Below are positions 7,415 to 21,495 of a stretch of 64,000 bases of DNA, piece by piece (the stretch's first letter is position 1; the number at the start of each line of letters is the position of its first letter). The notes under the pieces are model-generated. The model was not told the origin of the DNA. It was given only the letters and a program-made list of their open reading frames with translations, and ran no database searches. Made by a program: the position numbers and the translations under genes. Location: contig NZ_CP026121.1 in assembly GCF_003330845.1 (NCBI RefSeq), positions 6,553,501 to 6,617,500 on the forward strand, in the 5' to 3' direction. This DNA is from Streptomyces sp. Go-475 (GTDB taxonomy: Bacteria; Actinomycetota; Actinomycetes; Streptomycetales; Streptomycetaceae).

Positions 7415-8896
7415 TCACTCCGGGGCCGGAAGTCCGGGGCCCGGGCAGCGTACGTTCGCCGCGGGCACCGTTCCGTCCACCAGGTAGGCCGCCGCGGTGC
7501 CGTCCACGCAGGCGTTGCCGCGGCTCGCGAACACGCCGTGGGAGTAGTCGTCGTCGAGGGTGACCAGCGCTGAGCCGGGGAGCAGCCGCTGCATCGCGCG
7601 GGCTCCCTCGACCGTCGTCACGGCGTCGTGCGCGGACGCGACCAGGAGGACCGGCGGCGCCGCCGGGCTGCCGAGCGGGGTGCGGTGGCCGGGGCGGTGG
7701 TGCCAGTAGGCGCAGGTGCTCGCCTCCATGCCGGTCAGCACCGGTTGCGGGTCGGCCCGACGGGTGCGGCGGATGTCGGCGACGATCTCGCGGGGGCTCG
7801 GGCCCGGCCCGTCGGCGCACTTGACGACGCGGTTGGCCGCCTCGTACGTGCGGGATTCCGGGCCGTCGAAGGCGGCGGCCGGGCGCAGCGCGTCGACGCC
7901 GCCGTCGGCCAGGTAGCCGCGCAGCCCGCCGGCCAGCCCCGCCCACCGCTCGGTGCGGCCCAGGGCGCGGTACACCGCCCGGTCGAACTCCGCCGGGCCG
8001 AAACCGGCCACCGGCCGCGCGGCGAGCCCGCGGCGCACGCGCAGGTACGAGGCGCGCACCTCGGCCGGTGTCTCTCCCAGCCCGAAGTGCCCGGCGGCCC
8101 AGGCGAAGAAGGTGTCGCGCTGGCGCAGCAGCGCCCGGCTCTGCCGGACGTCGAAGTCGTACCAGTCCCACGGGCCGACGACGCTGTCCAGCACCATCCG
8201 GCCCACGCGGTGCGGGAACCGGGCGGTGTAGGCGGCGCCCAGGTAGGTGCCGTAGGAGACGCCGAGGAAGCTCGTCCTCGGTTCGCCGAGGGCCGCGCGT
8301 ATCGCGTCCATGTCGTACGCCGTCTGCTCGGTGGACAGATACGGCAGCAGACGGCCCGCGTGCGCGGCGCAGTCGTCCGCCATGGCCCGCAGGGACCTCA
8401 GGTACGTCCGCTCCGCCGCGGGTCCCACCGGCACCGGGTCGCCGCCCGGGCTGTCGAAGAGGCCGCCCATCGGGCCGCAGGAGACGGGGGTGCTCCGTCC
8501 GGTACCGCGCGGGTCGAAGCCGATCACGTCGTACGCGCGCCGCACGCTCTCGGGGAGTTTCGCCCGCTTGGTGACCGCGTAGGGGAGTCCGGAGCCGCCC
8601 GGGCCGCCCGGGTTGACCAGCAGGATGCCGCGCCGTTCGGCGGGCGTGCCCGAGGCGCGGACCCGGGAGACCGCCACCTCGACGCGCGGCCCCCCGGGCT
8701 GCCGCCAGTCGAGCGGCACGGTGAGCCGCCCGCACTCCACGCGCTCCGGAGCGGCCGGCCGGGGGACGGAGTCCGGGCAGGCGGTGAAGCGCAGGGGCGA
8801 GTGTGGCTCCGCCGCCTGGACGGGGGCGGCCGGGAGCAGGGTGGTGGCGGCCGTGAGGGCGCACAGCAGTGCGGCGCGGCGTGCGGAACGGGTCAA
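7415..8896 (-). CDS. Secreted tripeptidyl aminopeptidase-like alpha/beta hydrolase
   Basis: 493 aa with a Sec signal peptide (twin basic start MTRSARR, hydrophobic core, PVQAAEP cleavage region near residue 28). NPGGPGGSG near residue 95 is the oxyanion loop, GFDPRGTGRS follows, and GVSYGTYLG carries the nucleophile Ser214. The C-terminal TAP-like domain includes the late Asp and His (SAHDAVTT; SHGVFASRGNACVD). This is the Streptomyces tripeptidyl aminopeptidase/SlpD-SlpE group, which removes N-terminal tripeptides from secreted proteins. It is divergent from the ATP-grasp operon, and a Fur-family box lies in the 149-base gap, so metal control of both directions is possible. Confidence 0.88.
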   Translation of the reverse strand: MTRSARRAALLCALTAATTLLPAAPVQAAEPHSPLRFTACPDSVPRPAAPERVECGRLTVPLDWRQPGGPRVEVAVSRVRASGTPAERRGILLVNPGGPGGSGLPYAVTKRAKLPESVRRAYDVIGFDPRGTGRSTPVSCGPMGGLFDSPGGDPVPVGPAAERTYLRSLRAMADDCAAHAGRLLPYLSTEQTAYDMDAIRAALGEPRTSFLGVSYGTYLGAAYTARFPHRVGRMVLDSVVGPWDWYDFDVRQSRALLRQRDTFFAWAAGHFGLGETPAEVRASYLRVRRGLAARPVAGFGPAEFDRAVYRALGRTERWAGLAGGLRGYLADGGVDALRPAAAFDGPESRTYEAANRVVKCADGPGPSPREIVADIRRTRRADPQPVLTGMEASTCAYWHHRPGHRTPLGSPAAPPVLLVASAHDAVTTVEGARAMQRLLPGSALVTLDDDYSHGVFASRGNACVDGTAAAYLVDGTVPAANVRCPGPGLPAPE

Positions 8897-8931: not shown

Positions 8932-8950
8932 GACAATGAAAATGATTATC
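8932..8950. promoter_or_regulatory. Fur-family (Zur-like) operator
   Basis: Read on the reverse strand this 19-mer is GATAATCATTTTCATTGTC, which matches the classical Fur-box 19-mer at 16 positions; TGAAAATGATTATC on the forward strand fits the AAAAT-n-ATTTTC type sites of actinobacterial Zur. A perfect TTATCGATAA palindrome overlaps its end (8946-8955). It lies between the divergent aminopeptidase and the ATP-grasp/ABC operon. In Streptomyces iron control mostly uses DmdR (different box), so Zur is the best candidate; Nur or FurA cannot be excluded. Confidence 0.65.
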
Positions 8951-9045
8951 GATAACGTCTCCGGCGGCAACACCCGGCGCCCTCCCCCCGGAGGGTTCGC
9001 CGGGCTGCCCGCACGCCTCGAACTCATCGTGGAAAAGGGGGAGTT

Positions 9046-10302
9046 GTGGCTCATCTGTTGGTGGTCGAGAGCTGGGTAGGCTCCATGAGCAGACTGCTGC
9101 CGCGGGCGATCCGGGAGAACGGGCACACGTTCACCTTCCTCACCCGCGACCTGCACCACTACCTGCGCTCGGCACCGGAGGGGACCGCCCACCCGCTGCT
9201 CGGCGCCCGCAACGTCATCACCGCCGACACCAACGACATCGAGGCACTGCTGCCCGAGGTCGAGCGGCTGCACGAGGTGCTCGGCTTCGACGGGGTCGTC
9301 ACGTCCTGCGACTACTACCTGCCCGCGGTGGCCCGGATCGCGGGCCGTCTCGGACTGCCCGGCCCCGGCCCGGAGGCGGTGGAGAACGCCTGCCGCAAGG
9401 ACGCCACCCGCCGCGTCCTCGACGACGCCGGAGTCCCGGGCCCGCGCTTCGCCGTGCGCGAGGAGTGGGCGGACCTCGCGCGCGCGGCGCGGGAGATCGG
9501 CTACCCGCTCGTCGTCAAGCCCGTCGACCTGTGCGCCGGCATGTACGTGCGCCGGGTCGACGACGAGGCACAGCTCGCCGCCGCCTACCGGGCCCTGGCC
9601 GACTTCCCGGTCAACGCCCGCGGACAGCGGCGCACACCCGCGGTGCTGCTCGAAGAGCTGCTGGACGGCCCCGAGGTGAGCGTCGAGACGGTGTCGTACG
9701 CGGGCGCCGTCCAGGTGGTGGGCGTGACCGACAAGAGCGTCGGCGGGGCGCCCGCCTTCGTCGAGACGGGCCACATGTTCCCGGCCGCCCTGGCACCCGC
9801 CGACGCCGAGGCCGCCGAACAGACCGCCCTGGCCGCGCTCAAGGCCCTCGGCCTGACCGACGGGGTCGTCGCCCACACGGAGATCAAGCTGACCTCCGCC
9901 GGGCCGCGCGTGGTCGAGGTCAACCCCCGGCCCGCCGGCAACCGCATCACCGAGCTCATACGCCACGTCACCGGCATCGACCTGGCCGCCGCCTTCGTCG
10001 ACGTCGCCCTGGGCCGCGCACCCGACCTGCGGCACACCGACACCGGGCTGCGCAGCGCCGCCATCGGCTTCCTGGTGCCGGAGACCTCGGGCACCCTCGA
10101 AGCCCTGGACGGCAGCGGGCTGCGCGACCTGCCCGGGGTGCTGGAGGTCCAACTCGCCGAGCCCGGCCGGGCGGTGAAGGCGGCCGGCAGCAACAACGAG
10201 TACCTCGGGCACGTCATGGCCGGCGACGCCGACGGGCCCGGGGCCCGCGCACGCGTCGAAGCCCTGCTGGACGGGCTCCGCCCGGGGCTGGTGATCCGAT
10301 GA
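9046..10302 (+). CDS. ATP-grasp amide ligase (dipeptide-ligase-like)
   Basis: 418 aa from GTG 9046 just after a GGGGGAG. The N-terminal pre-ATP-grasp domain (HLLVVESWVGSM) is followed by the ATP-grasp fold: YPLVVKPVDLCAGMYVRRV (ATP-binding Lys and loop), VLLEELLDGPEVSVE (the adenine-contacting segment), and EIKLTSAGPRVVEVNPRPAG with the Glu and Asn magnesium ligands. Such proteins activate a carboxylate as acyl-phosphate and join it to an amine. The closest types by pattern are BacD/carnosine-synthase-like L-amino-acid ligases. As first gene of the operon it is the probable bond-forming step of the product. The next ORF overlaps its stop (ATGA). Confidence 0.85.
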   Translation: MAHLLVVESWVGSMSRLLPRAIRENGHTFTFLTRDLHHYLRSAPEGTAHPLLGARNVITADTNDIEALLPEVERLHEVLGFDGVVTSCDYYLPAVARIAGRLGLPGPGPEAVENACRKDATRRVLDDAGVPGPRFAVREEWADLARAAREIGYPLVVKPVDLCAGMYVRRVDDEAQLAAAYRALADFPVNARGQRRTPAVLLEELLDGPEVSVETVSYAGAVQVVGVTDKSVGGAPAFVETGHMFPAALAPADAEAAEQTALAALKALGLTDGVVAHTEIKLTSAGPRVVEVNPRPAGNRITELIRHVTGIDLAAAFVDVALGRAPDLRHTDTGLRSAAIGFLVPETSGTLEALDGSGLRDLPGVLEVQLAEPGRAVKAAGSNNEYLGHVMAGDADGPGARARVEALLDGLRPGLVIR

Positions 10303-11135
10303 CCACCGCCCTCACCGGCACGCCCTACGACGACCTCGTGACGCGGGTGCGCGACGGGGCCCTCGGGCCCGACCCGGCCGCCCTGCGCGTCTCCGTCGCC
10401 TTCACCACCCGGCAGGCCGTCCGGCACGCCGGGCGCGGCACCGGCTACCGCAACGAGGTCCTCAGCCTGCGCCTCGCCGAAGCCGTCGGCTCCTGCGCGG
10501 TCGAGCCCGGGGCACTGCCGGACAGCGCCGTCGAGGACTGTGTCGGCGCGGACGTGGCCTCGCTGCTGGAGCACCCGCTGCCGCCGGTGCGCGTGGCGGC
10601 CCTCGACGCCTACCTGATGCACGTCCTGCCGCACACCCCGGACCAGGGGGCCGCGCCCGTGCCGCTGCCCGCCGGGTCGTCGCTGGAGAAGTCCCGGGCC
10701 CGGGCCGAGGCCGTCGTCGAGCTGCTCGACCTGCCGCCCGGCGGCACCGTGCTCGTGGTGGGGGTCGTCAACTCCCTGCTGGAAGCGCTGCGTTCGCGCG
10801 GCCTGCGCTACGTCCCCTGCGACCTCAAGGGCGGCGCGACCGAGTGGGGCGAGCCGGTGGCCACCGACGCGCTCGCCGCGGCCGACGGGTGCGAGGCGCT
10901 GCTCGTCTCCGGCATGACCCTGGGCAACGGCACCTTCGAACCGCTGCGGCGGCACGCCCAGGCACACGGCAAGCAGCTCGTGATGTTCGCCCAGACCGGC
11001 AGCGCCGTACTGCCCCGCCTCCTCGGCCAGGGGGTGAGCGCGGTGTGCGCGGAGCCCTACCCGTTCTTCTGGCTCGACGGCGGCCCCGGGGTCGTCCACC
11101 GCTACCGCGGCTCCTGTCCCGGAGGCGGCCGATGA
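10299..11135 (+). CDS. DUF364-like protein (putative heavy-metal chelation domain)
   Basis: 278 aa, starting at ATG 10299 in a 4-base overlap with the ligase. The N-terminal region (RVSVAFTTRQAVRHAGRGTG) and the Rossmann-like C-terminal half (TVLVVGVVNSLLEALRSRG, LLVSGMTLGNGTFEPLRRHA, VMFAQTGSAVLPRLLGQGVS) match the pattern of DUF364/DUF4213 proteins, whose Pfam name 'putative heavy-metal chelation' is itself a guess. There is no biochemically settled function. Tight coupling to ligase and PLP genes suggests a catalytic or metal-handling role in the same pathway. The family assignment is from memory of the motif pattern and is moderately sure. Confidence 0.6.
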   Translation: MTTALTGTPYDDLVTRVRDGALGPDPAALRVSVAFTTRQAVRHAGRGTGYRNEVLSLRLAEAVGSCAVEPGALPDSAVEDCVGADVASLLEHPLPPVRVAALDAYLMHVLPHTPDQGAAPVPLPAGSSLEKSRARAEAVVELLDLPPGGTVLVVGVVNSLLEALRSRGLRYVPCDLKGGATEWGEPVATDALAAADGCEALLVSGMTLGNGTFEPLRRHAQAHGKQLVMFAQTGSAVLPRLLGQGVSAVCAEPYPFFWLDGGPGVVHRYRGSCPGGGR

Positions 11136-12220
11136 CCACCACCGCACTCCGGCCGCAGGCCCGCCGGGAACTGCTCTCCCTGCTCGGCCGCACCCCGCTG
11201 GCCCGCGTCACCGCCGACCTGCCCGGCCCCCACCCCGGCTTCTGGGCCAAGCTCGAAGGGCTCGCGGCGGGCGGCATGAAGGCACGGGCCGCCGTGTCGA
11301 TGCTGCTCGGCGCCCGCGAGCGCGGCGAACTCCAACCCGGCGCCCCGGTCGTGGAGTCCACCTCCGGCACCCTCGGCATCGGACTCGCCTTCGCCGGACA
11401 GGCCCTCGGCCATCCGATCGTCCTGGTCGGCGACCGCGAACTGGAGCCGTCCATGCGGCAGTTGCTGCGCTCCCACGGCGTGCGGCTGGAGATCGCCGAC
11501 CGCCCGGCCGAGCAGGGCGGCTGGCAGGCCGCCCGCCTCGCCCTGCTGCGCGACCTGCTCGCCGAACTGCCCGGCGCCTACTGGCCCGACCAGTACAACA
11601 ACCCCGACAACACCGCCGGCTACGCCTCCCTGGCCGCCGAACTCGCCGTGCAGCTCGACCACCTCGACATCCTGGTGTGCAGCGTGGGCACCGGCGGCCA
11701 CAGCGCCGGCATCATCGGCCCGCTGCGCCGCCACTGGCCCGCCCTGCGGCTCATCGGCGTCGACGCCACCGGCTCCACCATCTTCGGCCAGCCCGCCCGG
11801 CCCCGCCTGATGCGCGGCCTCGGCAGCAGCATCCACCCGCGCAACGTCGCCTACGACGCCTTCGACGAGGTGCACTGGGTCGGCCCCGCCGAGGCCGTCG
11901 ACAGCTGCCGCCGCCTCGCCCGGGGCGCGTTCGTCAGCGGCGGCTGGAGCACCGGCGCCGCCGCCCGGGTCGCCGCCTGGGCCGCCCGCGTCCACCCCGG
12001 GGCGGTCGTCGCCACCGTCTTCCCCGACGGCCCGCACCGCTACCTCTCCACGGTCTACGACGACGACTTCACCACCGCCCACGGCCTGGACCCCGCCACC
12101 GCCGCCACCCGGCCCGTCGAGATCCCGCACCCCTACGCGGCGGAGGCCGCCGGCTGGGTCCGCTGCACCCGCGTCAGCGACCCCCTCGCCGCCCCCGCCC
12201 TCCGGAAAGAGAGCCCGTGA
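11132..12220 (+). CDS. Cysteine-synthase-family PLP enzyme
   Basis: 362 aa, ATG overlapping the previous stop. This is a fold-type II PLP enzyme: LGRTPLARV at the start, GGMKARAA in the position of the GSVKDR Schiff-base Lys motif, STSGTLGIGLA in place of the usual TSGNTGIGLA substrate loop, VGTGGHSAG for the PLP phosphate, and FPDGPHRYLSTVY near the end. Cysteine synthase itself carries Asn in the loop; here it is Thr-Leu. That change, and the operon, argue for a dedicated beta-replacement reaction (for example making a 2,3-diaminopropionate- or cysteine-type building block, as SbnA does for staphyloferrin B) rather than housekeeping cysteine synthesis. The exact reaction is inferred. Confidence 0.85.
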   Translation: MTTTALRPQARRELLSLLGRTPLARVTADLPGPHPGFWAKLEGLAAGGMKARAAVSMLLGARERGELQPGAPVVESTSGTLGIGLAFAGQALGHPIVLVGDRELEPSMRQLLRSHGVRLEIADRPAEQGGWQAARLALLRDLLAELPGAYWPDQYNNPDNTAGYASLAAELAVQLDHLDILVCSVGTGGHSAGIIGPLRRHWPALRLIGVDATGSTIFGQPARPRLMRGLGSSIHPRNVAYDAFDEVHWVGPAEAVDSCRRLARGAFVSGGWSTGAAARVAAWAARVHPGAVVATVFPDGPHRYLSTVYDDDFTTAHGLDPATAATRPVEIPHPYAAEAAGWVRCTRVSDPLAAPALRKESP

Positions 12221-13269
12221 AGTCCAGCCTGCGCACCGTACGCCTCGCCCTCGCCGAGCCGCTGCGCATCTCCCGTTCCACCATGGCCGCACGCGACGCC
12301 GTGTGGCTGACCGTCGAGCACGACGGACTGCGCGGTCACGGCGAGGCCGTCACCAGCGTGTACTACGGACTCGGTACCGAGACGCTGGTCCGGCTCCTCA
12401 CGGCCGTGGACCTGAGCCGTTTCGCCGACCCCGAGAGCGCCCTGGAGGCCCTGCGCGCGGGGGAGCTGCCCGGCGGCGACACCCCGCCCGCGGTCACCGC
12501 CGCCGTCGAGTCGGCGCTGCTCGACCTGGCCGGCAAGCGCGCGGGCCTGCCCGTGCACCGCCTCCTCGGCGCCGCCGCGCCGCCCGTCGCCGCGACCGCC
12601 CGCACCATCGGCATCACGGCCCCGGTCCACGCCGCGGCGCAGGCCCGCGGCCTCGCCGCGCGCGGCTTCGAGGTCATCAAGGTCAAGGCGGGCGCCCCCG
12701 ACCCCGAGGACGACATCGAGCGCGTCCGCGTCATCCGCGACGCCGCCCCCAGAGCCCGGCTGCTCCTCGACCCCAACGGCGCCTGGACCCCGGCGCAGGC
12801 CGACGCCCTGCTGCCGCGCTTCGCCGACCTCGGCGTGGAGGCCGTCGAGCAGCCCCTCGCCCCCGGCGACCCGGAGGCCCTGGCCGCCCTCGCGCGGCGC
12901 GCACCGCTGCCCGTCATCGCCGACGAGGACGCTGTGAACCTGGAGGACGTCCGCCGCCTCGCCGGACGCGTCCACGGCGTCAACGTCAAACTCGCCAAAT
13001 GCGGCGGGGTGCACGCCGCCCTGCGCATCGCCCAGTTGACCGAGGGCAGCGGCACCGCGCTGATGCTCGGCTGCCTCACCGCCAGCACCCTCGGACTGGC
13101 CCCGGCCGTCCACCTCGCCGACCGGGCCCGCTGGACCGACCTCGACGGGCACCTGCTGCTCGCCCACGACCCGTGGACCGGGATCGGCGGCACCGACGGC
13201 ACCGTACGCACCAGCGGCCTTCCCGGACTGGGCGTCGAGGAGGTGGCGGCGCGTGAAGACGTGGCATGA
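12217..13269 (+). CDS. Enolase-superfamily racemase, dipeptide-epimerase-like
   Basis: 350 aa from GTG 12217 (GTGA overlap). N-terminal capping domain, then a barrel with FEVIKVKAG (KxK catalytic lysine motif), LLLDPNGAW (first metal Asp), VEAVEQPL (second ligand Glu), PVIADED (third ligand Asp) and NVKLAKCGG (the opposite catalytic Lys). This is the layout of L-Ala-D/L-Glu epimerase and related dipeptide epimerases and N-succinylamino acid racemases. Next to an amide ligase it could invert an alpha-carbon in the ligated product or provide a D-amino acid. It overlaps the next gene by 17 bases. Confidence 0.85.
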   Translation: MKSSLRTVRLALAEPLRISRSTMAARDAVWLTVEHDGLRGHGEAVTSVYYGLGTETLVRLLTAVDLSRFADPESALEALRAGELPGGDTPPAVTAAVESALLDLAGKRAGLPVHRLLGAAAPPVAATARTIGITAPVHAAAQARGLAARGFEVIKVKAGAPDPEDDIERVRVIRDAAPRARLLLDPNGAWTPAQADALLPRFADLGVEAVEQPLAPGDPEALAALARRAPLPVIADEDAVNLEDVRRLAGRVHGVNVKLAKCGGVHAALRIAQLTEGSGTALMLGCLTASTLGLAPAVHLADRARWTDLDGHLLLAHDPWTGIGGTDGTVRTSGLPGLGVEEVAAREDVA

Positions 13270-14488
13270 GATGAAGCGCTTCCCGCTCGCCGTACGGCTG
13301 CTGCTGGTCAACCAGCTCGGCGTCAACACCGGCTTCTACCTGCTCATCCCCTACCTCGCCACCCACCTCACCGAGAACCTCGGCCTGTCGGCGGCCGTCG
13401 TCGGTGTCGTCCTCGGTGTGCGCAACCTCAGCCAGCAGGGCCTGTTCATCATCGGCGGCTCCGCCTCCGACCGGCTCGGCGCGCGCGGCGTCATCATCGC
13501 CGGCTGCGCCCTGCGCACCCTCGGCTTCGCGCTGTTCGCGCTCGGCGACGGGCTGGCCGTGCTGCTCGCCGCCTCCGTGCTCAGCGGCGTCGCCGGGGCC
13601 CTGTTCAACCCGGCCGTGCGGGCCTACCTCGCGCAGGAGGCGGGCGAGCGCAGGGCGGAGGCCTTCGCGCTGTTCAACGTCTTCGCCACGACCGGCGCAC
13701 TCGTCGGGCCGCTGCTGGGCAGCGTGCTGCTCCTCGTCGACTTCCGCACGTCCGCGCTGACCGCGGCCGGCATCTTCGCGGTGCTCACCGTCGCGCAGGC
13801 CCTCGTCCTGCCCGCGCGCAGGGCCGAACCCAGCGGCGGCAGCGTCCTCGGGGACTGGCGGGAGGTGCTCGGCAACCGCGCGTTCCTGGCCTTCGCGCTC
13901 GCCATGGTCGGCATGTTCACCCTGGAGAACCAGCTGTACCTGCTGCTGCCGGCCGGGGCGAGGGAAGCCACCGGCTGGGACGGCGCGGCGGGCATCGTCT
14001 TCCTCGTCGGCACGGTGGCCAACCTGGCGCTCCAGCTGCGGATCACAAGGAGCCTCAAAACCCGGGGCAGCAGGGGCCGTTGGATCGCCGCCGGCCTCAC
14101 GGTGATGGGACTGGGCTTCCTGCCGCCGGCCTTCCTGCCGGGCGTCGTACCCGTCCTGGCCGGCGCCCTGCTCCTCTACATCGGCGTCATGATCGCCCAG
14201 CCGTTCGTGATGGAACTGATCCCCGGCTTCGGCCGCCCCGAACTGACCGGCACCTACTTCGGGATCTTCTACGTCGTCTCCGGCGTCGCCGCGGCCCTCG
14301 GCAACACCGCCGTCGGCTGGGCCATGGACACCGGTGAGCAGGGCGCCGCCTGGCTGCCCTGGGTGTGCTGCGCCTGCTTCGGTCTCGCCTCCGCGCTCGG
14401 CGTGGCCTGGCTGCGCCGGCTCGGCGCCCTGCCCGCGAGCCCGGCCCCGGAGGTCCCCGCCCCGGCGGGGGAGAGGAGCAAGGCGTGA
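13253..14488 (+). CDS. MFS transporter, probable product exporter
   Basis: 411 aa from GTG 13253 with twelve predicted membrane segments. The motif after TM2 is ASDRLGARGVIIAG (motif A) and the N-terminus reads FPLAVRLLLVNQLGVNTG. It belongs to the MdtH/YebQ-like drug:H+ antiporter group. Its position inside the biosynthetic genes and before an ABC importer suggests it secretes the finished molecule, as in staphylopine- and siderophore-type loci. Confidence 0.83.
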   Translation: MKTWHEMKRFPLAVRLLLVNQLGVNTGFYLLIPYLATHLTENLGLSAAVVGVVLGVRNLSQQGLFIIGGSASDRLGARGVIIAGCALRTLGFALFALGDGLAVLLAASVLSGVAGALFNPAVRAYLAQEAGERRAEAFALFNVFATTGALVGPLLGSVLLLVDFRTSALTAAGIFAVLTVAQALVLPARRAEPSGGSVLGDWREVLGNRAFLAFALAMVGMFTLENQLYLLLPAGAREATGWDGAAGIVFLVGTVANLALQLRITRSLKTRGSRGRWIAAGLTVMGLGFLPPAFLPGVVPVLAGALLLYIGVMIAQPFVMELIPGFGRPELTGTYFGIFYVVSGVAAALGNTAVGWAMDTGEQGAAWLPWVCCACFGLASALGVAWLRRLGALPASPAPEVPAPAGERSKA

Positions 14489-15279
14489 CCGGAGGTGCCG
14501 AGAGCGGCAACCTGCTCACCGACAACCCGGCGCTGTACGAGGCCCGCTTCCCCGACGCCGAGCGGCTGGCCGCCCGGTGGACGGAGGACTGCCTGCGCCG
14601 CCACGGCGCCGGGCCGCGCGTGCTGGACATGGGCTGCGGCACCGGCCGCGACGCCGCCGGGCTGCACCGGGCCGGCCGCACGGTGACCGGCGCCGACCTC
14701 TCCGAGGCGATGCTCGCCCACGCCCGCACGCACCATCCCGGCCCCGCGTACGTCCGGGCCGACCTGCACGGCTTCGACCTCGGCACCTTCGACGCCGTCG
14801 TCTGCCTGGACAGCTCCCTGCTGTACTGCCACACCAACGACCAGCTCGACGGCTTCCTCACCTCCTGCCACAAGGCCCTCGCACCGGGCGGCCTGCTCGT
14901 CGCCGAGATGCGCAACGGCGCCTACTTCCTCGGCCGGACCGACCTGCTCGACCGGCCCGCGGTCAACGAGTTCACCTGGCAGGGCACGGCCTACCGGTCC
15001 ACCACCACGCTCACGGTGGACCGCACGGCCCAGCTCCTGCGCCGCACCCGCGTCTGGACCACCGACGACGGAGCAGCGCCCGTCACCCAGCACTCCGCCT
15101 GGCGGCTGCTCTTCCCGCAGGAGCTGCGGCACCTCCTCGCCGCGCACGGATTCGAGGTGCTGGAACTCCACGACGGCCCCGGCCCCCGCACCGAACCCCC
15201 CTGGACCGAGGGCGAGATGCCCGGCCGGAAGACCGACGCGGACCGGCTGCACCTCGTCGCGCGCACGCTCACCCACTGA
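14485..15279 (+). CDS. SAM-dependent class I methyltransferase
   Basis: 264 aa from GTG 14485, 4-base overlap with the MFS gene. Motif I is VLDMGCGTGRDAAGLHRAG, motif II region TVTGADLSEAMLAHAR, and FDAVVCLDSSLLY takes the motif IV position. No target domain is visible. It is probably a tailoring N- or O-methyltransferase for the operon product. It is followed by the transporter genes after 15 bases. Confidence 0.83.
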   Translation: MTGGAESGNLLTDNPALYEARFPDAERLAARWTEDCLRRHGAGPRVLDMGCGTGRDAAGLHRAGRTVTGADLSEAMLAHARTHHPGPAYVRADLHGFDLGTFDAVVCLDSSLLYCHTNDQLDGFLTSCHKALAPGGLLVAEMRNGAYFLGRTDLLDRPAVNEFTWQGTAYRSTTTLTVDRTAQLLRRTRVWTTDDGAAPVTQHSAWRLLFPQELRHLLAAHGFEVLELHDGPGPRTEPPWTEGEMPGRKTDADRLHLVARTLTH

Positions 15280-15294
15280 CCCGAAGGACCAGAC

Positions 15295-16860
15295 ATGTAC
15301 GACGAACGCTTCCCCGGCCTGCGCCGCCGCGGCTTCCTCGCCGCCACCACCGGCGCCGCCGCACTCACCCTCGTCGGCTGCGGCGGCGGCACGGACGACA
15401 AGGCCGGCACCGGCGGCGGCACACCGAAGCGCGGCGGACGCCTGCGCGCCGCCTTCGCCGGCGGCGGCGCCAGCGAGACCCTCGACCCGCACCTGGCCAA
15501 CCTGTTCGCCGACGTCGCCCGCGCCAAGGCCCTCTACGACAAACTCGCCGACTACGGCGCCGACCTCTCCGCCCAGCCCCGCCTCGCCGAGAAGTGGCAG
15601 TCCAACAAGACCCTCGACCGCTGGCAGGTCACCCTGCGCGAGGCCACCTTCCACGACGGCAAGCCGGTCACCGCCCAGGACGTCCTGCACAGCTACCGCC
15701 GCATCGCCGACCCGAAGCAGGCGTTCCGCGCCAAGGCGTCCCTGGAACCCATCGACCTCGACGCCAGCCGCGCCACGAACGCCCGGACCGTCGAGTTCGT
15801 CCTCAAGCGCCCCACGGCCGAATTCCCCAACGTCCTGGCCGCGTTCGGCGCGTACATCATCCCCGAGCACGCCGGCGACTTCGACAAGAAGCCGATCGGC
15901 TCCGGCCCCTTCCGGTTCGTGTCCTTCACACCCGGCCGCTCCGCCGTCTTCCGCCGCAACGAGGACTACTGGGACGGCGCCCCGCACCTCGACGAGATCG
16001 AGTTCGTCGTCGCCAACGAGGAGTCCGCCCGCGTCAACGCCCTCCTCGCGGGCCAGGTCGAGTACGCCCACGAACTCAACCCCACCACCGCCCGCGCCCA
16101 CGAGGGCCGGGGCCAGATCGAGATCGTGCGGCTGCGCAACAGCGCCATGCAGGCGTTCTGCATGAAGACCGACCGGCCGCCCTTCGACGACAAGCGCGTC
16201 CGGGAGGCGTTCTTCCTCATCGCCGACCGCGGGGAACTCGTCGCCGGCGCCCTGTCCGGCGCGGGCGAGGTCGGCAACGACCTCTTCGGCAAGGGCTACG
16301 AGTACTACGCCGCCGGACTGCCCCAGCGCGAGCAGGACCTCGACCGCGCCCGCGCCCTGCTCAAGCAGGCCGGTGCCGAGAAGCTCAAGGTCACCCTGGA
16401 CACCTCGGCCGTCGCCGCCGGCTTCACCGAGGCCGCGAGCATCTTCCGCGACCAGGCCGCCAAGGCGGGCGTCACGATCGACGTGAAGACGGGCAGCAAG
16501 GACTCCTACTGGAGCGACATCCTCGACGGCGGCACCCTGTGCTGCTACCGCTCCGGCGCCATGCCCATCGAGGCCCACATCTCCCAGCGCCTCCTCACCG
16601 ACTCCACCACCAACGCCACCCAGTGGCGGCACAAGGACTTCGACGCCCTCTACCAGCAGGCGCAGTCCACCCGCGACAAGACCGAACGGGCCGCCGTCTA
16701 CGAGCGGATGCAGCGCCGCCTCTACACCGAGGGCGGCTTCCTGATCTGGGGCTTCGCCGACTGGATCCTCGGCACGTCCCGCAAGGTGAGGGGAGTGGAG
16801 ACCAAGGCCCCGGCCAACACCCTCGACTGGGCGCGCTTCGACAAGGTATGGCTGGCGTGA
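15295..16860 (+). CDS. ABC importer substrate-binding lipoprotein (family 5, peptide/nickel type)
   Basis: 521 aa with a RRRGFLAATTGAAALTLVGC leader: a twin-arginine-like start and a lipobox with the lipidated Cys at residue 29. The mature part is an SBP_bac_5 protein (RLRAAF start, FHDGKPVTAQDVLHSYRRI, IGSGPFRFVSF, FRRNEDYWDGAPHLDEIEF). The family binds oligopeptides, nickel or metallophores (DppA, NikA, CntA). As part of an operon with ligase, exporter and Fur-family box, it is likely the receptor for the returning metal complex. It ends with TGA at 16858-16860, overlapped by the GTG of the permease. Confidence 0.88.
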   Translation: MYDERFPGLRRRGFLAATTGAAALTLVGCGGGTDDKAGTGGGTPKRGGRLRAAFAGGGASETLDPHLANLFADVARAKALYDKLADYGADLSAQPRLAEKWQSNKTLDRWQVTLREATFHDGKPVTAQDVLHSYRRIADPKQAFRAKASLEPIDLDASRATNARTVEFVLKRPTAEFPNVLAAFGAYIIPEHAGDFDKKPIGSGPFRFVSFTPGRSAVFRRNEDYWDGAPHLDEIEFVVANEESARVNALLAGQVEYAHELNPTTARAHEGRGQIEIVRLRNSAMQAFCMKTDRPPFDDKRVREAFFLIADRGELVAGALSGAGEVGNDLFGKGYEYYAAGLPQREQDLDRARALLKQAGAEKLKVTLDTSAVAAGFTEAASIFRDQAAKAGVTIDVKTGSKDSYWSDILDGGTLCCYRSGAMPIEAHISQRLLTDSTTNATQWRHKDFDALYQQAQSTRDKTERAAVYERMQRRLYTEGGFLIWGFADWILGTSRKVRGVETKAPANTLDWARFDKVWLA

Positions 16861-17897
16861 GCAGCGCCCCAAAGGGGCGCGGGGAACCGCGTGACAAGCC
16901 ACGACGGCGCCGCGGATACGTGAGAGCCCATCGCGGCACGTCGAGCGGCGCTCTCCGCTCCTTCATCGCCCGGCGCCTCCTCCTCGGCCTGGTCCAGACC
17001 ATCGCCGTCGTCCTCCTGGTCTTCGCCCTCACCGAGGCCCTCCCGGGCGACGCCGCCGTCGCCCTGGCGGGCGACCAGCCCGACCCCGCCCGCATCGCCG
17101 CGATCCGCGAGGCCATGGACCTCGACCGGCCCGCGCACGAACGCCTGGCGGACTGGGCCGCAGGCCTGCTGCGGGGCGACCTCGGCACGTCCCTCACCTC
17201 CGGGCGCCCAGTGGCCCAGTACATCGCCGACGGCTTCGGCCCGAGCCTGCTGCTGGCCACGCTCACCCTCGCCCTGCTCGTCCCGCTCGGCTTCGGCCTC
17301 GGCGTGCTCGCCGCCCGGCACGAGGGGCGGCTGATCGACCGGCTGGTCAGCTCCGTGACGCTCGCCGTGTACGCCGTACCCGAGTTCGCCCTGGGCGTGC
17401 TGCTGGTGACGGTGTTCGCGCTGAAACTGGCCTGGCTGCCGCCCACGGCGGTGGGCTACGGCACCGACCTCGTCGGCCACCCGGCGGTGCTCGTCCTGCC
17501 CGTGCTGGTCCTGCTCTCCCGCCCCGTGTGCTCCCTGTCCCGCCTCGTCCGGGCCGGCATGGTCGACGCGCTCGCCTCGCCGTACGCGGCCCACGCCCGC
17601 CGCTACGGCGTCCCCGGCGCCCGCGTCCACTACGCCCACGCCCTGCCCAACGCCCTGGCCCCGGCCGCGCAGCAGCTCGCCCGCACCATCGACTGGCTGC
17701 TGTGCGGCGTCATCGTCGTGGAGGCGTTGTTCGTGATCCCCGGCCTCGGGACCGTCCTCCTCAACGCCGTCGCCGAACGGGACGTGCCGGTGGTGCAGGG
17801 GCTCGCCGTGGTGTTCGGCGTGCTGACCGTCGTCCTGAACCTGGCCGCGGACGTGGTGGCGTACCGGCTGACGCCCCGGGCGGGGGTGGCGGCATGA
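16857..17897 (+). CDS. ABC permease (DppB/OppB type)
   Basis: About six membrane segments, with the conserved N-terminal FIARRLLLGLVQTIAVVLL and the EAA-like loop HYAHALPNALAPAAQQ. GTG 16857 gives 346 aa and a 4-base overlap with the previous stop. However, its first 16-17 codons are read through a dispersed repeat (16864-16905), and a second in-frame GTG at 16920 would give 325 aa, the usual family length. I report the coupled start because all other junctions in this operon overlap, but the real start may be 16920. Confidence 0.82.
   Translation: MSSAPKGRGEPRDKPRRRRGYVRAHRGTSSGALRSFIARRLLLGLVQTIAVVLLVFALTEALPGDAAVALAGDQPDPARIAAIREAMDLDRPAHERLADWAAGLLRGDLGTSLTSGRPVAQYIADGFGPSLLLATLTLALLVPLGFGLGVLAARHEGRLIDRLVSSVTLAVYAVPEFALGVLLVTVFALKLAWLPPTAVGYGTDLVGHPAVLVLPVLVLLSRPVCSLSRLVRAGMVDALASPYAAHARRYGVPGARVHYAHALPNALAPAAQQLARTIDWLLCGVIVVEALFVIPGLGTVLLNAVAERDVPVVQGLAVVFGVLTVVLNLAADVVAYRLTPRAGVAA
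16864..16905 (+). repeat. Dispersed Streptomyces repeat, copy 1
   Basis: GCGCCCC-AAA-GGGGCGC forms a perfect 7-bp hairpin (16864-16880), followed by a tail ending GTGACAAGCCACGAC. The 33 bases at 16873-16905 match the copy at 63568-63600 at 30 positions. It sits at the junction of the substrate-binding and permease genes, normally the place of an intergenic processing or attenuation site. Confidence 0.75.
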
Positions 17898-18700
17898 CGG
17901 CCCCGCGCCGGCTGCTCCTCGGCACTGCGGTCGTCGCCGTGCCGCTGCTCCTCGCCCTCCTCGGGCCCCTGTTCGCCGGTGCACCCGGCCCGCGCGCCGC
18001 CTCCTTCACCCTCGGCGGCGGCCACTGGCTCGGCACCGACTTCGTGGGCCGGGACGTCTGGCGGCAGGTGCTGCACGGCGGCCGCACGGTCGTGCTGACC
18101 GCGCTCGCCGCGACGGCCCTCGCCTACCTCGTCGCCCTCCCGGTCGGACTCGTCAGCGCGGTCACCCACGCACGGCGGCTGGAGGAGCTGCTGATGCGGC
18201 CGCTGGACGTGCTGCTCGCCGTACCGTCGCTGCTGCTCGTGCTGCTGGTGGCGTCCGTGTTCTCGCCGGGGGCCGTGGGGCTCGCGCTGCTCGTCGCGCT
18301 GGTGAACGTGCCCGACGCCGCCCGGATCGTCCGGGCCGCGGCGGCCGAGGCGGCGGCCCGGCCCGCCGTGGAGGCACTGCGCATGCAGGGCGAGTCGTGG
18401 TGGCGCGTCGCCGTCGGCTACGTCGGCCGCTCGGCCCTGCGCACCCTGGCCGCCGACGCCGGCATCCGCCTGACCGGTGTGCTGTACCTGGTGTCGACGG
18501 CCGCGTTCCTCGGGGTGGGGGTCGCCCCGGACGCCGCCGACTGGGCGGTCATGGTCGACCGCAACCGCACGGGCCTCTTCGTCCAGCCCTGGGCCGTGGT
18601 CGTGCCCGCCCTGCTGATCGTCGCCCTGACGACGGGCACCAACCTGCTCTTCGACGCCGCCCTGGAGAAGAGCCCGAGAAGGAAGGGACGGCGGCCGTGA
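17894..18700 (+). CDS. ABC permease (DppC/OppC type)
   Basis: 268 aa from ATG 17894 (4-base overlap). N-terminal membrane segment, then GGGHWLGTDFVGRDVWRQVL, the signature of the second permease of peptide/nickel importers (usually LGTDxxGRDxxSR), further segments, and an EAA loop AVEALRMQGESWWRVAVGYV. It pairs with the preceding permease to form the membrane channel. Confidence 0.88.
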   Translation: MTAPRRLLLGTAVVAVPLLLALLGPLFAGAPGPRAASFTLGGGHWLGTDFVGRDVWRQVLHGGRTVVLTALAATALAYLVALPVGLVSAVTHARRLEELLMRPLDVLLAVPSLLLVLLVASVFSPGAVGLALLVALVNVPDAARIVRAAAAEAAARPAVEALRMQGESWWRVAVGYVGRSALRTLAADAGIRLTGVLYLVSTAAFLGVGVAPDAADWAVMVDRNRTGLFVQPWAVVVPALLIVALTTGTNLLFDAALEKSPRRKGRRP

Positions 18701-20262
18701 ACGACGAGACGGACCCGACCACCCCGCCGGAGCCGGTCGCCGCGCTCCACGGCCTCCGCGTCGAGATCGACGGCCGGCCGATCGTCGACGGGGTGGACCT
18801 GCGCGTGCTCCCCGGCACGGTGACCGCCCTGGTCGGCGCCTCCGGCAGCGGCAAGACCACCACCGGCCTGGCGCTGCTGGGGGAGTACCCGCCCGGCGCC
18901 CGGGTCACGGGCGAGGTGCGCCGGCCCGCCGACGGCCGGGTGGGCTACGTGCCCCAGCACCCGGCAGCCGTCCTCAACCCGGCCCGCCGCGTCAGCGCCC
19001 TCCTCGACGACCTCGCCCGTCCCCGGGTACGCCACCTGCCCCGGTCCGAACGCCGCGCGGCGGCCCGGGAACTGGTCCTGCGGGCCCTGTCCGACGCCCG
19101 GCTCCCGGACGCCGAACCGCTGCTGCGCCGCTACCCGCACCAGCTCTCCGGCGGCCAGCAGCAACGCGTCGTCCTGGCCCAGGCCCTCCTCCTCGGCGCC
19201 CGGGTCGTCGTCGCCGACGAACCCACCACCGGCCAGGACCCGGTCACCAAGAGCGGCATCGTCGACCAGCTCGCGGCGCTCGCGGCCCGCGGCATCGCGG
19301 TCGTGCTGCTCAGCCACGACCTCGACGTGGTCCGGGACCTCGCCGACGAGGTCCTCGTCCTGCGCGCGGGACGGGTCGTCGAGTCGGGCCCCGTGGCACG
19401 GCTGTGGGAGGCACCCCGCCACGAGTGGACCCGCCGGCTGCTCGCCGAACAGCCCGCGGCGCCGCGGGAAGAGGCACCCGCCGACACCGGCCGACCCACC
19501 CTGGAGGTACAGCACCTGACCGCCGTGCACGACCGCCGGACCACGGTCCTGCGCGTCCCGCACCTGGCGCTCCACCCCGGCGAGTGCCTGGCCGTGGTCG
19601 GCCGCTCCGGCAGCGGCAAGACCACCCTCGGCCGCTGCCTCGCCGGCCTGCACCGCCACCACGACGGCGAGATCCTCCTCGACGGCACGCCCCTGCCGCG
19701 CAGCCTGCGCCACCGCGGCCGGGACCGACTGGCCGCCGTGCAGTACGTCTTCCAGGACGCCCGCGCCGCCTTCGACGAGCACCGGCCCGTCCTGCACCAG
19801 GTGGCCCGCACGGCGGTACGGCTGCGGGGCACCGAGGAGCGGGCGGCGACGGACGAGGCGTCGGCCACCCTCGCCCGGCTCGGCCTGCCGGAGGAACTGG
19901 CCCGGCGGCGCCCCGGCCAGCTCTCCGGCGGCGAACTCCAGCGCGCCGCCCTCGCCCGCGCCCTCCTCGCCCACCCCCGGGTCCTGGTCTGCGACGAGAT
20001 CACCTCCGGCCTCGACACCGTCACCCGCCGCGGCATCCTCGACCTGCTCGCCGCCCTGGTCCGCGACCGCGGCGACCTCGCCCTGGTCCTCATCACCCAC
20101 GACCCGGCCACGGCGGCCCTCGCCCACCGCATCGCCGTCCTGGACGGCGGCGAAATCGTCGAACAGGGCCCGGCCCGGCGGGTCCTGACCGAGCCGCGGC
20201 ACCCCTTCACGCTCGCCCTCCGGGAGACGATCGACCGCCTCGGCACGTATACCCGGGCATGA
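18697..20262 (+). CDS. ABC ATPase, two fused nucleotide-binding domains (DppD-DppF type)
   Basis: 521 aa from GTG 18697 (GTGA overlap). First domain: Walker A GASGSGKTT, signature LSGGQQQR, Walker B VVVADEP. Linker near residue 255. Second domain: Walker A GRSGSGKTT, signature LSGGELQR, Walker B VLVCDEI. The second Walker B has Ile after DE, a mild change. One chain replaces the separate D and F ATPases of oligopeptide/nickel importers and completes the importer. It is the last gene of the operon; the next gene starts 141 bases later. Confidence 0.9.
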   Translation: MNDETDPTTPPEPVAALHGLRVEIDGRPIVDGVDLRVLPGTVTALVGASGSGKTTTGLALLGEYPPGARVTGEVRRPADGRVGYVPQHPAAVLNPARRVSALLDDLARPRVRHLPRSERRAAARELVLRALSDARLPDAEPLLRRYPHQLSGGQQQRVVLAQALLLGARVVVADEPTTGQDPVTKSGIVDQLAALAARGIAVVLLSHDLDVVRDLADEVLVLRAGRVVESGPVARLWEAPRHEWTRRLLAEQPAAPREEAPADTGRPTLEVQHLTAVHDRRTTVLRVPHLALHPGECLAVVGRSGSGKTTLGRCLAGLHRHHDGEILLDGTPLPRSLRHRGRDRLAAVQYVFQDARAAFDEHRPVLHQVARTAVRLRGTEERAATDEASATLARLGLPEELARRRPGQLSGGELQRAALARALLAHPRVLVCDEITSGLDTVTRRGILDLLAALVRDRGDLALVLITHDPATAALAHRIAVLDGGEIVEQGPARRVLTEPRHPFTLALRETIDRLGTYTRA

Positions 20263-20403: not shown

Positions 20404-21495
20404 GTGAGTGACACGGTGGCCACGGCCCGCCCGGCGGCCGGAGCGGCCCGGGCGCCGCGGACCGGGGAGCGGGACGCACCGGGCCGCCCGCCCCGGCAGC
20501 GGGACGCCTTCTTCGACAACGCCAAGTACCTGGCGATCGTGCTGGTGGCCGTCGGGCACGCCTGGGAGCCGCTGCGAGCGGGCAACAGGACCGTCACGGC
20601 CCTCTACATGCTCGTCTACGCCTTCCACATGCCGGCGTTCATCATCATCTCCGGCTACTTCTCGCGCACCTTCGACGGCAGCCCCGCACGGCTGAGACGC
20701 CTGGTCACCGGCGTCGTCGTCCCGTACGTGGTGTTCGAGACGGCGTACTCCCTGTTCACCCGGTGGACCAGCCAGGACCCCGACCGGCCGGTCAGCCTGC
20801 TGGACCCGCTGTACCTGACCTGGTTCCTGGCGGCGCTGTTCGTCTGGCGGCTGACGACGCCGGTGTGGCGGCTCGTGCGGTGGCCGCTGCCGGTCGCCCT
20901 CGGTATCGCGGCGCTGGCGACGCTCACGCCGTCCCTCGGCCCCGACCTCGACCTGCAGCGCACCCTGCAGTTCCTGCCGTACTTCGTGCTCGGCCTGCTG
21001 CTGCGGCCCGAGCACTTCCGGCTGGTGAGACAGCGCACCGCACGGATCCTCGCCGTGCCGGTGGCCCTCTGCGCGCTGGGCGTGGCGTACTGGGCCGTGC
21101 CGCGGATGGACTACGCCTGGTTCTTCCACGCGAACAGCGCCCGGGAGCTGGCCGCCCCCTCCTGGTACGGGCCCCTGATGACGCTGGCCGCCTTCGGCTG
21201 CTCGGCGGTCCTGGTGGCCTGCTTCCTCGCCTGGGTGCCGGGGCGCCGGACGTGGTTCACCGCCCTGGGCGCGGGCACGCTGTACGGCTATCTGCTGCAC
21301 GGCTTCGTCGCCCAGGCCGCCAAGCACTGGGGCTGGTACGAGCCGGCCTGGGTCGGCCGGCCCGCCGGTGTGCTCCTCGTCACCGCCGTGGCCGCCGGGG
21401 TGATGACCGCGCTGTGCACGCCGTCCGTACGGCGGGTGTTCCGCTGCGTGACGGAACCGGCGATGCCGTGGGCCTTCGCGGAGGGAAGGCGGTGA
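20404..21495 (+). CDS. Acyltransferase-3 family membrane protein
   Basis: 363 aa from GTG 20404. After a 30-residue polar start, DAFFDNAKYLAIVLVAVGHAWEP has the family's key His (VGHAWEP) in the first membrane segment. MLVYAFHMPAFIIISGYFSR is the second hallmark, and about ten hydrophobic segments follow. These integral-membrane enzymes O-acetylate sugars or cell-surface polymers (fucose 4-O-acetylase-like). No glycan genes are adjacent, so the acceptor is unknown. Confidence 0.85.
   Translation: MSDTVATARPAAGAARAPRTGERDAPGRPPRQRDAFFDNAKYLAIVLVAVGHAWEPLRAGNRTVTALYMLVYAFHMPAFIIISGYFSRTFDGSPARLRRLVTGVVVPYVVFETAYSLFTRWTSQDPDRPVSLLDPLYLTWFLAALFVWRLTTPVWRLVRWPLPVALGIAALATLTPSLGPDLDLQRTLQFLPYFVLGLLLRPEHFRLVRQRTARILAVPVALCALGVAYWAVPRMDYAWFFHANSARELAAPSWYGPLMTLAAFGCSAVLVACFLAWVPGRRTWFTALGAGTLYGYLLHGFVAQAAKHWGWYEPAWVGRPAGVLLVTAVAAGVMTALCTPSVRRVFRCVTEPAMPWAFAEGRR

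Follow-up and report, generated by a model that had tools for sequence, protein, structure and literature searches.

The ten genes at 9046-20262 of the window, by which we mean the whole analysed stretch of 64,000 nucleotides from Streptomyces sp. Go-475, probably make up an operon that is repressed by Zur and directs the synthesis and uptake of a small zinc metallophore, and its enzymes differ as a set from those of the metal-scavenger pathways compared. This reading rests on the rarity of the promoter box, the zinc and metal genes beside its sister sites, the conservation of box and operon, the retention of catalytic residues, and a 37% match between binding proteins. If it is correct, the operon would add one more actinomycete zincophore, a widespread one (69 of 295 sampled Streptomyces genomes carry the operon), and would provide the orphan family DUF364 with a testable pathway. 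Few actinomycete zinc metallophores are named in the available text of PMC6103462 (coelibactin and EDDS). No description of the present gene set was found in the titles and abstracts searched, a search beyond which lay most subscription papers, the EDDS and EDHA originals included.

Operon organization and conservation

The genes are collinear and make up a single operon in a source genome of 8.57 Mb. A preliminary description had proposed a tight operon with mostly 4-base overlaps, and an overlap of exactly 4 bases is present at seven of the nine junctions. At the other two, the enolase-family and MFS genes overlap by 17 bases, provided that the MFS start is the GTG at 13253, and the methyltransferase and binding-protein genes are separated by 15 bases. 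The domain content given there was likewise recovered: ATP-grasp followed by the C-domain of L-amino-acid ligases, DUF364, PALP, MR_MLE, MFS, methyltransferase, SBP_bac_5, two permeases, and a fused double ABC ATPase. The features are as follows.

8932-8951, + strand: predicted Zur-type operator (19-mer at 8932-8950; core 15-mer TGAAAATGATTATCG at 8937-8951)
9046-10302, + strand: ATP-grasp ligase of L-amino-acid-ligase type (Pfam PF13535, PF18603; nearest solved relatives BL00235 and BacD)
10299-11135, + strand: DUF364 protein (PF04016; predicted structure like solved DUF364 proteins)
11132-12220, + strand: SbnA-like PLP enzyme, putative C-N bond former of diaminopropionate type (PALP domain, NCBIfam, SbnA structure match)
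12217-13269, + strand: enolase-superfamily enzyme, dipeptide-epimerase-like (MR_MLE domain, aligned residues)
13253-14488, + strand: MFS transporter, presumed exporter (start at 13253 or 13271; best NCBIfam model MdtH, below cut-off)
14485-15279, + strand: class I SAM-dependent methyltransferase (domain search)
15295-16860, + strand: family-5 (NikA-type) substrate-binding lipoprotein (RR-x-FLA motif and lipobox-like LVGC, both by eye)
16857-17897, + strand: NikB-type permease (domain and model search)
17894-18700, + strand: NikC-type permease (domain and model search)
18697-20262, + strand: fused NikD/NikE-type double ATPase (domain and model search)
7415-8896, - strand: divergent neighbour, optional; alpha/beta hydrolase of TAP-like peptidase type (Pfam)

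The preliminary description suggested searching genomes for the co-occurrence of enzyme set and importer, and all ten genes are found in the same order in 73 of the 74 relatives with enough sequence. Carriers extend to a second family of actinobacteria and include a plasmid of Rhodococcus, and the operon is also plasmid-borne in Streptomyces. Within clade A, 18 of 20 loci are complete; a contig end cuts the operon at L066, where eight genes are seen, and L080 is without the methyltransferase and importer. Much of the operon is missing from L227 as well, and this locus and L080 count against the zinc-metallophore reading. An acyltransferase gene was seen 3' of the operon at 1 of 40 loci. The divergent peptidase, which may share the operator with the operon, was considered as a fixed part but has a homologue at just 9 of the 20 clade A loci and 35 of 84 in the wider survey (in which region L173 was wrongly sliced and L111 duplicates L136), and it is therefore left outside the core.

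A Zur-type box at the divergent promoter

The Fur-type 19-mer GACAATGAAAATGATTATC at 8932-8950 had been picked out in the preliminary description, and it agrees at 16 of 19 positions with the Fur consensus. With as many as 3 mismatches allowed, the core 15-mer TGATAATNATTATCA is matched once in the window, and 100 shuffles gave no match. Across the 8.57-Mb genome, eight sites lie within 2 mismatches of TGAWAATSATTWTCA; the operon box is one of them, and six of the other seven adjoin zinc or metal genes. Their neighbours are AztAB, a ZnuA-like gene, the L33/L28/L31B genes, a FecBCD importer beside AztD, a FUR-family gene, and a second NikA operon; the seventh site is unassigned. Because of these neighbours the box is classed, on sequence grounds, as Zur type, which upholds the earlier assignment to the Fur family and narrows it. 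At C1:1124304, the best such site genome-wide, the box precedes not aztD itself but the genes that come directly after it, a FecB-like gene and its FecCD importer. The S. coelicolor Zur targets SCO0472-0476 were considered as a DUF364 cluster and dropped, the start-codon site described there resembling the aztA site here.

The preliminary description had named a lack of Fur-box enrichment ahead of homologous operons as grounds for abandoning the proposal, and the outcome was the opposite. Of 79 upstream regions (those of 83 loci with the required 300 bases), 73 carry the box with no more than 2 mismatches, as do none of 1580 shuffles and none of 1580 windows taken inside the operons. By its retained promoter box the operon is thus a predicted member of the Zur regulon. 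Weaker boxes at L080 (5 mismatches), L083 (4), and the Rhodococcus locus L241 (4) count against the zinc-metallophore reading, as does the failure to find a sigma-70-like promoter around the box. It could be argued that the operon serves ordinary peptide metabolism and that the box is a coincidence or belongs to the divergent peptidase only, as every gene taken singly comes from a common family with catabolic members. This is very improbable: the box is kept at up to 3 mismatches in 9 of the 11 clade A loci where no homologue of the peptidase was found, and a ligase and an MFS exporter fit catabolism poorly.

Putative biosynthetic enzymes

The PLP enzyme had been described as cysteine-synthase-like. 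Membership of the PALP family stands, and a plain cysteine synthase is ruled out because the SbnA model (TIGR03945) scores best at 237 bits, compared with at most 155 bits for cysteine synthase models, and SbnA is the best solved relative; the 237 bits fall below that model's cut-off of 350. The PLP lysine is kept in 103 of 103 homologues. The DUF364 protein is modelled with a pLDDT of 92.7 and matches the solved DUF364 proteins 3l5o and 3npg, and the ligase, judged by its domains and relatives, is of the L-amino-acid-ligase kind. Alignment of the enolase-family enzyme with 3iji, 3jva, and 1jpm places the KxK motif, metal ligands, second lysine, and DxD motif of dipeptide epimerases, whose individual roles are presumed here. 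These residues are kept in 97 to 99 of 99 homologues (DxD in all 99). The rows behind this count and that of the PLP lysine are not all independent, since L085 and L169, on contigs of equal length, are probably one genome.

Domain search of the ten operon proteins found no SbnB-like or decarboxylase gene. SbnB-family (OCD-family) genes exist elsewhere in the genome, so a diaminopropionate route aided from outside the operon is possible, which counts against the zinc-metallophore reading.

Importer and cargo

The importer is clearly similar to the CntABCDF/NikABCDE type and scores best against nickel-type models. Every such model is matched below its curated cut-off, as is the SbnA model, and this counts against the zinc-metallophore reading. 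These scores, together with the five FUR-family genes in the genome, would suit a system with the same logic of synthesis, export, and import whose cargo is nickel, cobalt, or another divalent metal and in which a Fur-family protein would signal starvation in general. Such a cargo is unlikely, as boxes of the same type adjoin AztAB, a ZnuA-like gene, and genes for alternative ribosomal proteins in this genome, and NikA-type proteins also serve metallophore complexes.

Another view is that the ligase makes a dipeptide that is released as an antibiotic or antimetabolite when zinc runs short, with the importer taking up the product or other peptides as nutrients. The kinship of the ligase with the bacilysin ligase BacD fits this, SBP_bac_5 proteins often bind peptides, and some of the relatives have a divergent secreted peptidase next to the operon. 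We nevertheless hold it to be rather improbable: in 73 of 74 loci the operon includes the importer, and DUF364-SbnA is accompanied by a binding protein of 48-49% identity in clusters where no ligase or epimerase homologue was detected.

For the zinc-metallophore reading, we infer Zur binding, the identity of the metal, the transport directions, and each chemical step and its order from sequence. When zinc is plentiful, Zur loaded with the metal would occupy the box at 8932-8951 and keep the operon silent, and scarcity of zinc would allow the operon to be transcribed. The SbnA-like enzyme would couple a three-carbon unit from serine to an amino acid through the amine of the latter, with DUF364 acting on the same intermediate. 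The ATP-grasp ligase may then form an amide bond to a further amino acid, giving a pseudo-dipeptide of which the enolase-family enzyme would invert one stereocentre and which the methyltransferase would cap. The MFS protein would export the ligand, and the NikABCDE-type importer would recover its metal complex.

Comparison with known systems

Staphylopine and other opine zincophores pair a small ligand built from amino acids with inversion of a stereocentre, export by an MFS protein, a CntA/NikA-type importer, and control by zinc. The operon would share the kind of ligand, the inversion, the MFS export, and the zinc control, and its importer resembles the CntA/NikA type, at scores below the model cut-offs. 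The enzymatic contrast drawn in the preliminary description holds as far as it was followed. No nicotianamine synthase (PF03059) was found in the genome, a control genome giving a match, so by gene content the operon is not of the staphylopine type; no opine-dehydrogenase-type protein is among the ten operon proteins, and PF10100 was matched neither in the genome nor in any control genome. Among solved structures, the PLP enzyme comes closest to SbnA of the staphyloferrin B pathway. That pathway uses siderophore synthetases, which the operon lacks along with any SbnB-type protein. BacD of the bacilysin-type L-amino-acid ligases and the L-Ala-D/L-Glu epimerases belong to the same families as the operon ligase and epimerase, which here are joined with SbnA-like and DUF364 proteins, a NikABCDE-type importer, and a Zur-type box.

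A further comparison is with the cluster for EDHA, an aminopolycarboxylate metallophore of S. scabiei (MIBiG BGC0002567, scab_5231-5311), matched to its genomic region by gene content and approximate position rather than annotation. Common to both are the SbnA-like enzyme (35% identity), the family-5 binding protein (37%), a NikBCDE-type importer, and an exporter gene. In S. scabiei the region encodes an ornithine cyclodeaminase (SbnB-type), a PLP decarboxylase, TauD, and a MATE protein, and it lacks a Zur-type box. The window operon has the box, and in place of those genes it carries the ones for DUF364, the ATP-grasp ligase, the epimerase, the methyltransferase, and the MFS protein. S. scabiei also carries a copy of the operon, at 9.09 Mb; it was ruled out as the published EDHA cluster, the presumed region of which lies at about 0.59-0.60 Mb. 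SbnB-type and PLP-decarboxylase genes are present in locus L245.

Available text describes [S,S]-EDDS of Amycolatopsis japonicum as a Zur-controlled aminopolycarboxylate metallophore (PMC6103462, PMC9252823, PMC8914351). Because it has no SbnB-like or decarboxylase gene, the operon is, on gene content and with the S. scabiei region as reference, not of the EDDS/EDHA type. Coelibactin of S. coelicolor is in the available text of PMC6103462 a predicted, Zur-controlled Streptomyces zincophore. It is non-ribosomally made, and the window operon has no NRPS. The enzyme set matches neither of the two compact routes considered here.

It is an even call whether DUF364 and the SbnA-like enzyme are the common core of a zincophore family that actinobacteria keep under Zur control, to which the form in the window would add ligation and epimerisation to give a pseudo-dipeptide chelator. 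Such a chelator would be a zincophore of a new chemical class, and DUF364 would gain its first role in a pathway. The rule offered for genome mining is to look for a DUF364 gene close to an SbnA-like one and accompanied by a Zur-type box; where DUF364-SbnA pairs lie in otherwise different clusters, the box is present in 18 of 20 loci.

Gene content and predicted enzymes

A tight operon with a Fur-type 19-mer at its promoter, as the preliminary description had it, is confirmed here, in a genome made up of one contig of 8.57 Mb (window at G000:C1:6553501-6617500). We consider a zincophore pathway the most likely mechanism: Zur would control the operon, and the ligand would be an SbnA-type amino-acid conjugate that is then ligated, epimerised and methylated. 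The gene set and the type of box are well supported; the product, the metal and the order of steps are what we infer. NikA-type import of small amino-acid metallophores already has precedents.

Features of the operon (domain assignments from Pfam and NCBIfam)
9046-20262, + strand, ten-gene operon, exact 4-base overlap at 7 of 9 junctions
Gene 1, + strand, ATP-grasp protein with L-amino-acid-ligase C-terminal domain
Gene 2, + strand, DUF364 protein
Gene 3, + strand, PALP protein; top NCBIfam model SbnA, 237 bits, under the cut-off of 350
Gene 4, + strand, MR_MLE protein
Gene 5, + strand, MFS protein
Gene 6, + strand, methyltransferase
Gene 7, + strand, SBP_bac_5 binding protein
Genes 8 and 9, + strand, two BPD permeases
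Gene 10, + strand, fused double ABC ATPase

The importer proteins are similar to nickel (Nik/Opp) and staphylopine (Cnt) models, every score lying below the curated cut-off. Alignment of the SbnA-like protein to SbnA covers most of its length, and all 103 homologues examined retain K50, which is aligned to the PLP lysine of SbnA. The epimerase-like protein aligns with 3iji, 3jva and 1jpm; all 99 homologues retain D236, K258 and the two DxD residues, while each of the four remaining catalytic positions is conserved in 97-98 of the 99. The closest solved relatives of the ligase are the L-amino-acid ligases BL00235 and BacD. The predicted model of the DUF364 protein (pLDDT 92.7), whose closest named relative is a Streptomyces olindensis protein (95-96%), has as its top structural matches 3l5o and 3npg (TM 0.48-0.60), solved DUF364 proteins without known function; the remaining matches among the best 50 listed reach TM 0.39 at most. 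All 103 homologues share seven residues (C66, E69, D103, T181, W183, Q232 and E252), which makes an active site in DUF364 likely. Directly 3' of the operon is an Acyl_transf_3 membrane acyltransferase (20404-21495, + strand), which is probably not a member since it is present in 1 of 40 related loci.

The Zur-type box in the genome

The 19-mer at 8932-8950 agrees with the Fur consensus at 16 of 19 positions. The pattern TGATAATNATTATCA has a single match in the window at up to 3 mismatches and none in any of 100 shuffles. Genome-wide, TGAWAATSATTWTCA finds 37 sites at up to 3 mismatches versus 3 for the reversed control pattern; 8 have at most 2 mismatches, among which the window site is joint second.

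Neighbours of the sister Zur-type sites
5' of a FecB-like gene, two FecCD permeases and an ATPase, directly after the zinc chaperone gene aztD
At the 5' end of aztA, which diverges from aztB
At the 5' end of a ZnuA/AdcA-like gene
Between L28 and L33/type-B L31
About 100 bases 5' of a FUR-family match
68 bases 5' of a second NikA-type operon, 2 mismatches
G000:C1:6860846-6860860 (locus L032), 2 mismatches, 5' of a gene weakly matching a zinc-metalloprotease lipoprotein model

The top-scoring FUR-family gene is located 2.8 kb beyond the ZnuA-side box, an arrangement shared by zur in S. coelicolor. Published Zur targets in S. coelicolor include znuABC and alternative ribosomal proteins (PMC6103462). 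Together, these targets and the neighbours of six of the seven sister sites (L032 being left unassigned) mark the operon box as a predicted Zur-type site of this genome. No sigma-70-like promoter was found around the box.

In the zinc locus L031 (G000:C1 ~1118400-1129530), genes for AztA, AztB, a ZnuA-type protein and AztD precede those for a FecB-FecCD-FecCD-ATPase importer and for a protein of ABC exporter type; with 0 mismatches, the box 5' of the FecB-like gene is the best Zur-type box of the genome. The second NikABCDE-type operon, with its own Zur-type box (L152, G000:C1 ~6111850-6116834), has no evident biosynthetic genes adjoining it and might take up a metallophore of foreign or distant origin.

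Conservation of the operon and its box

At E 1e-15 or better, a DUF364 homologue was found in 122 of 295 Streptomyces genomes: by tally, clade A (at least 70% identity) in 69, clade B (38-44%) in 55, and both in two. Eighteen of 20 fetched clade A loci (of 69) have the ten genes in order; one of the others ends at a contig edge and one is without the methyltransferase and importer. Among 84 further loci, which include L136 from another family (51-68% identity), 9.5 kb downstream was present in 74, and 73 of these carry the full ten genes in the same order, L227 having the first four only. One of these loci is on a Rhodococcus plasmid and another on a Streptomyces plasmid. In a phylum-wide draw, ligase homologues at E 1e-30 or better were found in 25 of 396 genomes; in six, the window's own genome among them, identity is at least 62%.

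The earlier metallophore proposal survives a test that it had set itself, Fur-family box enrichment upstream of homologous operons. In 79 regions 5' of the ligase gene, the box has at most 2 mismatches in 73, 3 in four and 4 in two, against none with at most 2 in 1580 shuffles or 1580 operon-internal windows. In the first 20 clade A loci, the box has at most 2 mismatches in 14, 3 in four, 4 in L083 and 5 in L080.

Comparison with known systems

The EDHA cluster of S. scabiei 87-22 (scab_5231-5311, 11 kb) was missed by antiSMASH in the cited study (PMC8914351); antiSMASH 7 has new rules for aminopolycarboxylic and opine-like metallophores (PMC10320115). SbnA homologues in S. scabiei include one at 9.09 Mb (89%), which belongs to its copy of the window operon, and one at 0.598 Mb (35%). 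A third, at 10.01 Mb (56%), forms a stand-alone pair with an adjoining MFS gene (L246:9529-12041; 55-56% and 43% to the window's), and the pair has neither DUF364 nor a Zur-type box. At 0.59-0.60 Mb is a region with SBP_bac_5 and NikBCDE homologues, TauD, a gene of the ornithine-cyclodeaminase (OCD) family, a PLP decarboxylase gene, SbnA and MATE, and with no Zur-type box at 3 mismatches; from its gene content and approximate position we take it to be the EDHA cluster. It shares SbnA and the importer with the window operon, which differs in having neither an SbnB-type nor a decarboxylase gene. Elsewhere, the window's genome has three genes of the OCD family, and a search of that genome for nicotianamine synthase found none.

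The wider DUF364-SbnA family

Each of the 20 fetched clade B loci (out of 56 matches) also contains an SbnA-like match within its stretch, accompanied by other partners. Those viewed closely have a weakly methyltransferase-like protein, an MFS protein, a GHMP kinase in several, and either FecCD-type or NikABCDE-type importers. A box with at most 2 mismatches is present in 14 of the 20 fetched stretches (10-19 kb, long enough to contain one at random; chance expectation ~0.02 per stretch, from eight sites per 8.57 Mb). Four NikABCDE-type loci had been cut short of the promoter; further upstream, a 1-mismatch box was found in all four, 59-101 bases 5' of the estimated start of the binding protein, which raises the total to 18 of 20, with 3 mismatches in each of the remaining two. 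The binding proteins of these four loci are 48-49% identical to the window's, and this, with the box, argues that the SbnA-DUF364 pair, the NikABCDE-type importer and the box are associated also in loci where neither a ligase nor an epimerase homologue was seen.

GHMP-family kinases stand beside the clade B DUF364-SbnA genes in L086, L242 and L244 (by Pfam) and in L094 and L101 (by eye), and may be the source of phosphoserine for the SbnA-like enzyme. In L094 and L148 (G287:C21), the DUF364-SbnA cluster lies beside zinc ABC genes and adjoins a distinct cluster of distant homologues (SBP-NikB-NikC-NikD-NikE-ATP-grasp-MLE-MT-MFS, 24-40% identical to the proteins of the window), so that the parts of the window operon are divided there between two adjacent clusters.
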